From positions 1,865 through 65,864 of the forward strand of contig NZ_KB235933.1 of the NCBI RefSeq assembly GCF_000332315.1: a DNA stretch of 64,000 bases. The letters run 5' to 3'. Position numbers and translations under genes: made by a program. A model generated the notes under the pieces. The model did not search any database, had not been told where the DNA came from, and saw only the letters and a program-made list of their open reading frames with translations. Every line of letters starts with the position of its first letter. Position 1 is the first letter of the stretch. Source of the DNA: Prochlorothrix hollandica PCC 9006 = CALU 1027. Lineage in GTDB: Bacteria; Cyanobacteriota; Cyanobacteriia; Prochlorotrichales; Prochlorotrichaceae. Shown one piece after another: positions 3,863-9,817 of this stretch.

Positions 3863-5050
3863 CTAGGGCGTGCAAGTGCCCCCTAAGGCATTGACGATCG
3901 TACAGGTATTGAGCTGCAACATTTCCTGCACCGTGTCTCCCTCCCTTGGCCCTTCGATCTGTAGGGGAGGTTCCGCCACTTTAACCCCGGAATCCTGGGA
4001 TAAGGTGGCTATTAACCGGGGATTTGCCGTTGATTCCGTAAAAATGGCAGTTACCTGGGCCTGCTTCAAGATCTCCACCAACTCCACCAACCGCGAAGCC
4101 GACAGGCTCTCCATCCCACTCAGTCCACTGATGGCCCCTAGATCCTGGAACCCGTAGCGGTGGGCAAAGTAACCGAGGGCGCTGTGGGTGGTGATTAAGC
4201 GCCGATCGTCGGGGGGAACCGTGGCCACCTGGGTTTTGATCCACCCGTCCAAGTCGGTAAACTCCTGCACTAGGGCGCTGGTGGCAGTGCGATAGCGATC
4301 GCCCTCCTGGGGGTTGAGCTGTTGCAACTGGGCACTGATGATAGTGGCAATTTGGCTATTATTAAGGGCATCATGCCAAATATGGGGATCTGGAACCAGA
4401 TTAGTCCCCGATTCCACCTCTAACCCATGGTTAGGGTTATTATCGTCTTGATGGTCATTTTTATCATCATGACTGGGATCATCATGACTGGGATCATCAT
4501 GACTGGGATCATCATGACTGGGATCATCATGACTGGGATCATCATGATTGGGATCATCCCCATGGTCATGGGCAGTGGCAAACAGGGGATCCGGTACCGC
4601 TGCCTCATAGACCGCCACCTTAACCGCCGTATCGTCCCGCGCTGTCACCAGGGCAATCAAACCCGGTTCTAAGTCATACCCGCCATAGAGAATCAGATCG
4701 GCTTGATCAATGGCCTTGCGATCGGAGGGAATGGGCTTGTAGCTGTGGGGATCTTGGCCCGGTTCAATCAGGCAGGTGAGATCGACGGTGGTGGCGGCGA
4801 TTTGTTGGGTCAGGTTACACAAAATGCTAGTGGTGACCACAACGCGGGGTAAGGGTTGCACCGCATCGGGCACGATCGCCCCTGGGGAGGACTGACCGGG
4901 GTTAAGGGTCTGGTTAGACGAAGAACCGGAGCCACAGCCTCCTAATCCTGCCAGTAATAGCACCAGGGCCAGGGTTGGGTGTAGTCTGGCAGATTTGGTT
5001 TTAGGTTTGGTTTTAGGTTTAGTGTTAAGTCTGGTTTTAAGGTGCAACAT
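3863..5050 (-). CDS. znuA: Zinc/manganese ABC transporter substrate-binding lipoprotein (ZnuA-like)
   Basis: This is a cluster A-I metal-binding protein. I chose ATG at 5050 (395 aa) because a basic stretch, a hydrophobic core and the lipobox LAGLGGC follow directly; a TTG at 5101 would add 17 residues. The family pattern is visible: 'SILCNLTQQIA', 'GQDPHSYKP' (metal His), 'DPHIWHD' (metal His) and 'HSALGYFAHRYG' (metal His). A His/Asp-rich loop of repeated DDPSH units sits between residues about 160 and 200 and is typical of zinc-type members. The C-terminus has two Cys (TCTIVNALGGTCTP), possibly a disulfide as in some ZnuA proteins. No znuB or znuC is adjacent. A Fur/Zur-like palindrome lies 128 bp upstream. 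Confidence 0.85.
   Translation of the reverse strand: MLHLKTRLNTKPKTKPKTKSARLHPTLALVLLLAGLGGCGSGSSSNQTLNPGQSSPGAIVPDAVQPLPRVVVTTSILCNLTQQIAATTVDLTCLIEPGQDPHSYKPIPSDRKAIDQADLILYGGYDLEPGLIALVTARDDTAVKVAVYEAAVPDPLFATAHDHGDDPNHDDPSHDDPSHDDPSHDDPSHDDPSHDDKNDHQDDNNPNHGLEVESGTNLVPDPHIWHDALNNSQIATIISAQLQQLNPQEGDRYRTATSALVQEFTDLDGWIKTQVATVPPDDRRLITTHSALGYFAHRYGFQDLGAISGLSGMESLSASRLVELVEILKQAQVTAIFTESTANPRLIATLSQDSGVKVAEPPLQIEGPREGDTVQEMLQLNTCTIVNALGGTCTP
4471..4560. repeat. 15-bp tandem repeat in znuA, 6 copies
   Basis: The unit GACTGGGATCATCAT is repeated exactly five times, with a sixth degenerate copy. On the coding strand it encodes the DDPSH pentapeptides of the metal-binding loop, so copy-number change would alter loop length without a frameshift. 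Confidence 0.9.
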
Positions 5051-5110
5051 AATGGTTTTGACGGATGGGGGAGTGCGGGGTGGTGCAACGCGATCGTCCA
5101 AGGCTGCATA

Positions 5111-6532: not shown

Positions 6533-6582
6533 ACCCCAGGGCTTTTGATAATTCAGTCCTAACCACACCTCAGGAGGGGGAC

Positions 6583-7017
6583 ATGATCGAAGATTATCAG
6601 GCTGCCCATGGGCAGCGGGATCAAGATACTGGCGCTTTGCATCGTGGCGATCGTAAAATTGCAGCGATGCATTGGGGGGGCTGTACGATCGAATGTTTGC
6701 TGAAGGCCATGATCCTCGCCCAAATTGGTAACCCCCAACAGCGTCAATGGCACACGAGTCAACAGCCCCAGCCCCATGGTATTGAACGCCCCGGCCATGA
6801 TCTACAGGATGCTTTAAGAAAACATCAAAAACTGGCCGATCGGGTCAATAAATTTCCTGAAGTTAGATCCTGGCTGAGCCGTGTCAATGATCCTGGGGGT
6901 CACTTTATTCATCTGCGATATAGTGCCGATGAGCCAGATTCTGAAGCCTATAAAGAGTGGTGGACGGCCTATGAAAGGCTCTACCGGTGGTTAGTAAAAC
7001 AGACAACACAGATGTAG
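6583..7017 (+). CDS. HEPN-like small protein, partner of the downstream ATPase
   Basis: This 144-aa protein starts at an ATG preceded by a strong Shine-Dalgarno sequence (CAGGAGGGGGACATG). It is helical throughout, with 'HWGGCTIECLLKAMIL' early, 'HDLQDALRKH' in the middle and 'LRYSADEPDSEAYKEWWTAYERLYRWL' near the end. That arrangement (first long helix, H-D-L, then an L-R-Y segment before a last helix) recalls HEPN-domain proteins, which often act as RNases or their regulators. A classical Rx4-6H motif is not evident, so catalysis is doubtful. It ends 10 bp before the next gene and is almost certainly co-transcribed with it. I know no named family for it. Confidence 0.5.
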   Translation: MIEDYQAAHGQRDQDTGALHRGDRKIAAMHWGGCTIECLLKAMILAQIGNPQQRQWHTSQQPQPHGIERPGHDLQDALRKHQKLADRVNKFPEVRSWLSRVNDPGGHFIHLRYSADEPDSEAYKEWWTAYERLYRWLVKQTTQM

Positions 7018-7027
7018 GTATAGTGTC

Positions 7028-9817
7028 ATGGATCGATCCCTTAAAGTTATTCTCAAAGAGATCTTAGAGTCTGTTTACTGTCCCGATGGCCCAGAGTCCT
7101 CTGGGTGGATTGAACTCAACTTCTCCACTGCGGATCTGATCAATCTGACGATCGTTAGCCCACAGTTTGACGGCATGGACTCAGGCACTCGTCTGAAGCA
7201 TATACAGAAACATTTACCCCCTGGAATGCGGGAAAAGCTGGGATTCTTGTCCTTCTATACTCCCAGCGAAGCCCAAGGTCTGGAACTAACCCCCAGCGCC
7301 GCCCTCTCTGCCACCCCTCCCCACACCTGGCAAGATTTAGCCATCCAAGCTGCCAATCCCCAAAATTCTCCCCAAAGCGCCCTTTCACCCCAACGGACCC
7401 AGCCCCAACCCCACACCGTCACCTTTTACTCCTTTAAGGGAGGCGTAGGACGGACAACAGCCTTGATCCATGTGGCTTGGATTTTAGCCCAGCGGGGGCG
7501 TAAGGTGGTCGCTGTCGATTTGGATTTAGAAGCACCCGGTTTAAGTACCTGCTTTTCCCTCACGCCTCCTCTGACCTTGGGTTTAGTCGATTATTTCTAT
7601 GAGCGGGCTTATATGCTCCAGGATTCCTATGACATTAAGGTGGCGGATATTATAGGGGAAGTGGAGATGGCCAATGCTCCAGGACGGTTGTTTGTGGTAC
7701 CAGCGGGAGAGTTGAGTTTAGACTATGTGTCTAAGGTTGATGATTTACGGGCTGTCACGGTGACCGATGGGGGTAGCAGCTTGTGGTCTGTTTTTGTCAA
7801 GGATTTAGAGGAACAATTGCACCCAGATTTAATCCTAGTGGACTCTCGCACGGGCTTAAACCAATGGGGATCGTTTTCCCTCTTAGAAGCAGCCGATGAG
7901 ATGGTCATTTTTCTATTTCCTAACTATCAAAATTCCAAGGGAATTGAAGTCCTTTTGCAATCCCTTCTGCAATCCCTGAGATTCCCAGGAACACCTACTG
8001 TGGTATTTTCCCCAGTTCCTGCCGTGACGGAGGTGGGAATGGCTAAGGTTCGAGAGACGTGGGAGACTCTTGGGCCTCTGGTCGCTCAATTTACTCCCTA
8101 TGATGTTACTCCCGATGATGTTATTCCCGATGATGCGGAAAAGGATCCAGATCAAGACAATTCCGAGGATAACCTAGATGATTATTCAGATGATAAGCAG
8201 AGGGATGATCCCCTGGTCATTGGTTATACCCCTGACATTGCCTTAGCTGATGGCAATCTTGATGCTATAGCCCGATCTTCAGATTATTATCAAAAAATTG
8301 CCAATGTCATCGATCGCTCTTTAGTCCAAGAACAACGCAATGGGCCAGAGGCTCCAGCGTTCGATCGCTGGCAGTTACTCAGCAGCTTAAGCTTCCCTTC
8401 AGCGAATGCCGCACAGCAGTCCCCGCAAGGCGCTGGTTTACTGTTTCAGAAAACTGCAACTTTTCAGCGCTTCCTAGACGAAAGTGTCTGTTTAATCCGA
8501 GGTCGCAAAGGAACAGGCAAGACAGCCCTGTATAAGCTGCTGTTGGATAATCCCCAACAGTTCCATAATCTGTCCAAGGATCAATTAAAACGCTATCAAT
8601 TTGTCTGTGGCCATGGGAAACGGGAGGGAGGACGGCTGACAGGTTCTGATTTTGGCGGGTTGGGCAATGATTTGCAGACGGCCAGTCAGTGGGAGTCATT
8701 CTGGCGGGGCTACCTGTTGATCCAAGCTTATCGCCAGGGTTGCTGCCAGTTTCTGAACCGACTGATCGGTGATTCCCAAAAATTCAAGCCCCTGCAAAAA
8801 TCGATCAAATCCTTACCGTCTGAGGGCTGGTCATCGGAGGTTGTGGAGGGTTTGCGGCGGCTCGCGATCGATCAGTCCCTCAAGTCCCTGGTTTCTGATG
8901 CCTTCGCCCATCTCAAGCCAGCCGAGACAGGAAAACATATCCTCTGTTTTCTCTACGATGACTTGGATGAAGATTTCAGAGAGTCACCCGCTTTGCGTCA
9001 ACAAGCCCTCACGGGACTCTTCCAACTAGTGCAGTTCTGTGATGCTCGTGCCTTTGCCCATCTACGGTTTAAGATTTTCCTGCGAGAGGATCTGTGGCAG
9101 CAACTCAATTTCGATAATAAAAGCCATTTTCGAGGTCGTGATCTATCCCTGCGTTGGGAACGCATTGACTTTATGCGCCTAGCCTATCGACAGGTGAGCC
9201 AATCATCAGCTTTTAAAAATTATGTCAATCGCTTTTATCCCATCGAAGACCTCGATCTGGCTGCGGAAGAAGACATTGAAAATGCCCTAGGGCTATTGTG
9301 GGGGGAAAAACGGCGGCGGGGCAGCAAGGCAAAATATGTATCCCGGTGGATTTACGATCGCCTCACTGACTCCAGTGGCACCACTTTTCCCCGCAGTTTG
9401 AGTGTTTTGTTGAAGGCTGCTACAGATCACGAACTGACTTATCAGAACCAACCCGTACAACCGCCAACGGATCGCCTGTTGCGAAGTAAAGCCCTTGATA
9501 TTGGCTTGAAGGAGGCTTCCCAGGAACGTTGCGAGGCCATCACCCAAGAATACCCTGAACTTGAGGCTTTTCTGGAAAAACTACCTGGTTTTCTGGCCCT
9601 TGCTGATGGTGCAGAGTTGGAGCAACTATGGCGTGAAACTGCCCTAGACGTGGCTGAAACCTTTGATCAATTTGTGAACTTACTCAAGGAAATCGGGTTG
9701 GCGGAGTGGCGATCGCAGACCTATTGGCAATCGCAGACCTATAAAAAAGCAGCCCATTACCGATTTGCTGACATTTATATCTATGGCTTTAAGATGAAAT
9801 ATCAGGGCGCTAGGTAA
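7028..9817 (+). CDS. Multidomain ATPase: BolA-like N-terminus, KGGVGR-motif ParA/MinD-like domain, second P-loop domain
   Basis: This 929-aa protein has three recognisable parts. Residues 1-85 resemble a BolA/KH-like layout: 'TIVSPQFDGMDSGTRLKHIQKHL' parallels the VSxxFxGxxxxxRH core and 'LGFLSFYTPSEA' the final strand with YTPxE. Residues about 128-350 are a SIMIBI/ParA-like ATPase with the variant Walker A 'SFKGGVGRTTAL', then 'VVAVDLDLEAPGLS' and 'LILVDSRTGLNQWG'. An acidic linker (about 355-395) carries two 15-bp repeats. Residues about 470-800 hold a second P-loop 'GRKGTGKTALYK' and a Walker B 'CFLYDDLDEDF', reminiscent of Sll1717-type P-loop ATPases. KGGVGR-motif ATPases are linked to bacterial conflict systems. 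Pairing with an HEPN-like gene 10 bp upstream supports a defence role, as an inference. Confidence 0.7.
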   Translation: MDRSLKVILKEILESVYCPDGPESSGWIELNFSTADLINLTIVSPQFDGMDSGTRLKHIQKHLPPGMREKLGFLSFYTPSEAQGLELTPSAALSATPPHTWQDLAIQAANPQNSPQSALSPQRTQPQPHTVTFYSFKGGVGRTTALIHVAWILAQRGRKVVAVDLDLEAPGLSTCFSLTPPLTLGLVDYFYERAYMLQDSYDIKVADIIGEVEMANAPGRLFVVPAGELSLDYVSKVDDLRAVTVTDGGSSLWSVFVKDLEEQLHPDLILVDSRTGLNQWGSFSLLEAADEMVIFLFPNYQNSKGIEVLLQSLLQSLRFPGTPTVVFSPVPAVTEVGMAKVRETWETLGPLVAQFTPYDVTPDDVIPDDAEKDPDQDNSEDNLDDYSDDKQRDDPLVIGYTPDIALADGNLDAIARSSDYYQKIANVIDRSLVQEQRNGPEAPAFDRWQLLSSLSFPSANAAQQSPQGAGLLFQKTATFQRFLDESVCLIRGRKGTGKTALYKLLLDNPQQFHNLSKDQLKRYQFVCGHGKREGGRLTGSDFGGLGNDLQTASQWESFWRGYLLIQAYRQGCCQFLNRLIGDSQKFKPLQKSIKSLPSEGWSSEVVEGLRRLAIDQSLKSLVSDAFAHLKPAETGKHILCFLYDDLDEDFRESPALRQQALTGLFQLVQFCDARAFAHLRFKIFLREDLWQQLNFDNKSHFRGRDLSLRWERIDFMRLAYRQVSQSSAFKNYVNRFYPIEDLDLAAEEDIENALGLLWGEKRRRGSKAKYVSRWIYDRLTDSSGTTFPRSLSVLLKAATDHELTYQNQPVQPPTDRLLRSKALDIGLKEASQERCEAITQEYPELEAFLEKLPGFLALADGAELEQLWRETALDVAETFDQFVNLLKEIGLAEWRSQTYWQSQTYKKAAHYRFADIYIYGFKMKYQGAR

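Follow-up and report, generated by a model that had tools for sequence, protein, structure and literature searches.

What kind of system is formed by a small gene and the large ATPase gene directly downstream of it in Prochlorothrix hollandica? We refer to the two as gene A and gene BC, and to the whole 64,000-nucleotide stretch of DNA that was analysed as the window. The earlier note, made from the letters alone, had described a small gene with a strong ribosome site, 10 bp before an ORF for a 929-aa protein. Both ORFs, the spacing and the site were confirmed, and the following parts were assigned on the evidence given in brackets (window positions):

6572..6577, + strand: AGGAGG, ribosome-binding site of gene A (read in the sequence, 5' of the first ATG)
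6583..7017, + strand: gene A, 144-aa HEPN-superfamily protein, PDC-M28A-like (PADLOC, Pfam of homologues, conserved residues)
7028..9817, + strand: gene BC, 929-aa fusion of PDC-M28B and PDC-M28C types (PADLOC)
7049..7297, + strand: BolA-like domain, BC residues ~8-90 (PDB profile search, Pfam, hhalign, AlphaFold2/Foldseek)
7409..7966, + strand: KGGVGR-type ParA/MinD-like ATPase domain, BC residues 128-313 (NCBIfam NF047398, 6.5e-49)
7436-7459, + strand: P-loop KGGVGRTT of the KGGVGR domain, BC residues 137-144
8438..9757, + strand: Sll1717-family ORC/CDC6-like AAA+ ATPase, BC residues 471-910 (NCBIfam NF047389, 8.4e-38; AlphaFold2; Foldseek)
8501-8524, + strand: Walker A GRKGTGKT of the second ATPase, BC residues 492-499
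8954-8968, + strand: Walker B YDDLD of the second ATPase

The domain order of BC is BolA-like, KGGVGR ParA-type ATPase, Sll1717-family ATPase. Both P-loops that had been called from the sequence are real, but their positions had been slightly off (138-145 and 489-497 instead of 137-144 and 492-499). Near the C terminus of BC there is a short tandem duplication (window 9711-9756, WRSQTYWQSQTY) that homologues do not have. The host genome contains a single copy of the pair, surrounded by housekeeping genes, which from reading of the ORFs we take to be a LarE-like gene before it and, following it, ORFs for an FKBP-type isomerase and a Der-type GTPase. Elsewhere in the window (3863-5101), a ZnuA-type zinc-binding protein has a long repeated SHDDP loop encoded by a tandem repeat.

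Gene A and the ATPase domains of BC

All three components of PDC-M28 in PADLOC-DB were matched in order, HEPN A by gene A (1e-6, covering residues 1-65 only), and KGGVGR B (5.4e-39) and Sll1717-type C (8e-25) by BC; the combination is therefore a candidate defence system already in the catalogue, except that B and C form one protein here. PMC12988326 traces the PDC systems to the guilt-by-embedding study of Payne et al. and calls them unvalidated; PDC-M28 in particular would, judged by its name, stem from that work.

The ParA-like ATPase with a KGGVGR motif reported in the earlier note was borne out by NF047398 (KGGVGR ATPase), which BC matches with 166.8 bits against a curated cut-off of 90. 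In 66 aligned fused proteins, K137, R142, D164, D166, E168 and D272 of this domain are invariant; the usual Walker A lysine is an arginine in all 66, which makes hydrolysis by the KGGVGR domain uncertain. The second ATPase matches NF047389 (Sll1717 ATPase) with 130.6 bits against a curated cut-off of 75, and its residues G492, G495, G497, K498 and D644 are invariant in the 66 proteins. With the AlphaFold2 model of this C-terminal ATPase (pLDDT 88), the top Foldseek match was Cdc6/Orc1 (2qby, E 1.3e-5), with BrxC, RdrA and TnsC lower and the apoptosome lower too; Pfam STAND matches of BC were below cut-off. Of the former description of this domain as a STAND-like ATPase, the P-loop ATPase stands, but profile and model point to an ORC/CDC6-type AAA+ ATPase of the Sll1717 family; STAND, which the Foldseek ranking did not favour over ORC/CDC6, is not proven. 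The BREX-related Hma/DUF499 is alike in combining HEPN with an ORC/CDC6-type AAA+ ATPase in a defence setting (PMC12839542), as is BrxC in being a match of the C-terminal model, but the A-BC module comes without the methyltransferase or helicase, and the ATPases are only distantly alike.

The small protein had been called HEPN-like, which is right at the family level. Gene A alone gave E=0.09 against Pfam HEPN (PF05168); 14 of 32 homologues match this family (best 5.9e-8), and four of the 32 match Pfam AbiV weakly. The HEPN assignment rests on these Pfam matches because a PDB profile search with the family alignment returned no HEPN structure. Among the 32 members D15, E37 and H72 are invariant and R12, C38, K41, R112 and Y113 near-invariant, so that E37xxxK41, H72 and R112-Y113 are kept, and the canonical HEPN Rx4-6H motif is not conserved. 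Anantharaman et al. (PMC3710099) described an Ex3[KR] motif of HEPNs and, for AbiV and AF0298-type HEPNs, a retained arginine, a lost histidine and another conserved histidine upstream, perhaps as an alternative site. Gene A fits this description, with the histidine of Rx4-6H lost, the arginine kept and an upstream histidine conserved, and a putative RNase activity is therefore plausible by analogy; it differs from those HEPNs in being linked to a two-ATPase partner.

The lack of a conserved Rx4-6H would also suit a reading in which HEPN A binds RNA or nucleotides without catalysis and the effector role falls to BC, which might for instance bind DNA as an AAA+ protein and block phage replication; the resemblance of the C domain to Cdc6/Orc1 and BrxC agrees with this. 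Against it stands the (near-)invariance of E37xxxK41, H72 and R112, the pattern of those AbiV and AF0298 HEPNs for which PMC3710099 considers another active site possible. We consider BC fairly unlikely to be the effector; this reading is itself a version of defence, and the likelihoods that we attach to it and to an NTP-gated switch (below) are not exclusive.

The BolA-like domain and other N-terminal domains

A BolA layout had been claimed for the first ~85 residues of BC, and motif residues, Pfam, PDB profiles and hhalign agree with this claim. When 26 diverse N-terminal domains of BC proteins were aligned, F47, R55, T78 and E81 were invariant in all of them. Scanned singly, 14 of the 26 matched Pfam BolA (best 3.4e-4), other Pfam families being matched by one domain each; the window's own domain as a single sequence scored under the curated BolA cut-off. 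With a cut-off of E=10, a PDB profile search with the alignment found 18 distinct sequences, every one of the BolA family (best 8.5e-5), and hhalign against 20 canonical BolA proteins of the cyanobacterial phylum gave a probability of 97.2% (E 2.8e-11). The AlphaFold2 model has a core pLDDT of ~90 and the order helix-strand-strand-helix-strand-helix, and its top 15 Foldseek matches are BolA structures (probability 0.99-1.00, none with E <0.001). The search of a predicted structure against known folds, proposed in the earlier note, returned BolA and not an unrelated fold.

Profiles and model confirm the N terminus of BC as a BolA-like domain with a predicted class-II KH-type fold. It shares this fold and the VSxxFxG..R and TPEE motifs with the BolA family, but is fused to ATPases and has other residues at the positions of both conserved BolA histidines (QH/RH and HAL) in a joint alignment with canonical BolA. 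These histidines bind Fe-S clusters in BolA proteins, which have roles in Fe-S trafficking and stress. Such roles would favour a cyanobacterial gene pair for housekeeping or stress regulation, linked by BolA to Fe-S/redox or cell-shape control; the missing histidines argue against this, as does a separate canonical BolA beside a glutaredoxin-like ORF in the same genome.

Relatives of BC have other N-terminal domains. In seven split A-B-C loci (one pair being the same locus twice), B bears a different one; this three-gene form is found in cyanobacteria at L072 (4060-7379), L161, L162, L164-L166 and L170. Beside the fusion of B and C, A-BC differs from PDC-M28 in that the N-terminal domain of the split cyanobacterial form is unrelated to BolA. 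A third form of ~920 aa, at ten fused or formerly fused loci (L171-L180), has a HEPN gene upstream, the match at L175 falling under the stricter cut used in a wider count, and an N-terminal domain of its own, in which the motif LLTWLDIRR...CFSDA.EI...PVEF was seen. BolA identity was rejected for the split-form and third-form domains (~1% probability each, with shallow profiles); profile comparison, with profiles equally shallow, found no likeness between the two, and a PDB profile search with them gave no identity. Judging by these profiles, BolA is one of no fewer than three unrelated domains that the core carries at its N terminus, and the N terminus looks like an exchangeable part.

The earlier note had known no named system of this composition. 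Minus BolA the combination is already the PADLOC-DB candidate PDC-M28, of which A-BC is a fused, re-headed variant, but BolA as one of at least three N-terminal domains is new. Among the papers searched, which took in neither preprints nor subscription journals, there was nothing on PDC-M28, KGGVGR or Sll1717, no BolA head or head-swapping on such a core, and no report of a BolA domain in immunity.

Pairing, mobility and surroundings of the pair

One scan of bacterial genomes from several phyla yielded 80 loci; in 74 of them the gene directly upstream of BC is A, which upholds the proposed two-gene module through the neighbourhood survey suggested with it. Of the six others, L051 and L095 keep a remnant of A, L102 and L107 are broken off at the end of a contig, and L096 is a fragmentary module; L060 is the only one of the 80 with an intact BC and no trace of A. 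A wider count, in which some genomes appear twice, found A with 77 of 79 BolA-bearing fused proteins, often in a 4-bp overlap, and with none of the four KGGVGR proteins that lack an N-terminal domain, a built-in negative control. Distances of A and BC correlate with r=0.955 over 41 loci, a value to which shared vertical descent contributes and which none of 2000 permutations reached.

The pair is conserved and horizontally mobile, with defence-locus contexts at some copies. Its presence is patchy within genera, and the tree mixes phyla (with long-branch warnings). A Chloroflexota copy lies inside a BREX operon, brxC-pglX-pglX-(A-BC)-brxH-pglZ-brxA, on one strand and with gaps or overlaps of <20 bp, and a Nostoc plasmid copy adjoins hsdR and a recombinase. 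Most of 14 IMG/VR contigs carry split A-B-C relatives together with HEPN genes; on L183-L194, predicted to be viral or proviral, the split form mostly has a HEPN-like gene upstream. Annotated phage genomes gave no match. A neighbour scan for defence families ran without a matched control, many of its matches being two BREX genes of one locus, and we claim no enrichment from it. The link to defence drawn in the earlier note survives through the PDC-M28 match and the BREX, PD-T4-2 and hsdR contexts.

In Microcystis, the slot between ileS and a RidA-like gene contains A-BC alone, A-BC with PD-T4-2, or A with PD-T4-2 and a B truncated near residue 400. PD-T4-2, a defence system in PADLOC, thus directly adjoins Microcystis copies. 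Among 12 Microcystis genomes, the pair is full in 3, truncated in 5 and missing from 4. At L116, L118 and L123 the C half of BC is cleanly lost, the A and B frames are kept and PD-T4-2 is directly downstream. Truncations that lose C but keep A and B argue against BC as the effector; A with a truncated B and no C, in five genomes, also counts against the explanation that we favour, as do the unconserved Rx4-6H, the Walker A arginine of the KGGVGR domain and the housekeeping neighbours of most cyanobacterial copies, the window's included.

Small-then-large gene order, tight coupling and mobility would fit a toxin-antitoxin module as well, with the HEPN as toxin, the ParA-like BC as antitoxin and no dedicated phage sensing. 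Counted in its favour is the dyad of HEPN (MAE_18760) and ParA/Soj of Anantharaman et al. (PMC3710099), alike in pairing a HEPN gene with a ParA-like ATPase; but that HEPN is of another family with the canonical motif present, and neither a Sll1717 nor a BolA domain is described for the dyad. The MAE_28990/MAE_18760-like HEPN family is absent among the Pfam matches listed at E<=1 for the 32 gene A members, BC with its two conserved ATPase cores and its swappable N-terminal domains exceeds the needs of an antitoxin, and the BREX embedding of the Chloroflexota copy points to defence over toxin-antitoxin. We judge a toxin-antitoxin module unlikely.

Most cyanobacterial copies adjoin housekeeping genes such as groESL, obgE and ileS, as a housekeeping or stress-regulation pair might. 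Patchiness within genera, spread across phyla and the copies in BREX, on a plasmid and, in split form, on viral contigs speak against such a role, which we hold to be quite improbable.

A candidate NTP-gated defence switch

From what the domains are, how the two genes pair and diverge together, their mobility and the defence loci around some copies, we regard A-BC as probably a fused, BolA-bearing variant of PDC-M28, a candidate anti-phage system in which BC would be an NTP-gated switch that activates HEPN A. The ORC/CDC6-like AAA+ and KGGVGR ATPases of BC would engage either nucleic acid of the invader or a state induced by the phage; the exchangeable domain at the N terminus, BolA-like in this case, may be an adaptor or recognition head. 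On this trigger, an NTP-driven change in BC would release or activate the co-encoded A; as an AbiV-like HEPN, A may use an alternative site (E37/K41/H72/R112) for cutting or binding RNA, so that growth halts. The anti-phage function, its trigger, RNA cutting by A and which of BC and A controls the other are inferred.

The wider claim, possible but somewhat doubtful, is that PDC-M28 is a true anti-phage system, in which a constant core of HEPN, KGGVGR ParA and ORC/CDC6 ATPase would carry swappable recognition heads, one of them being a BolA domain recruited from Fe-S or regulatory biology into immune sensing or signalling. Head-swapping logic is known from other immune ATPases. If the claim is true, the unvalidated candidate PDC-M28 would gain a concrete architecture, residues to test and a distribution over the phyla, the swapping of heads on a constant ATPase/effector core would be shown, and a BolA domain would be placed in immunity.
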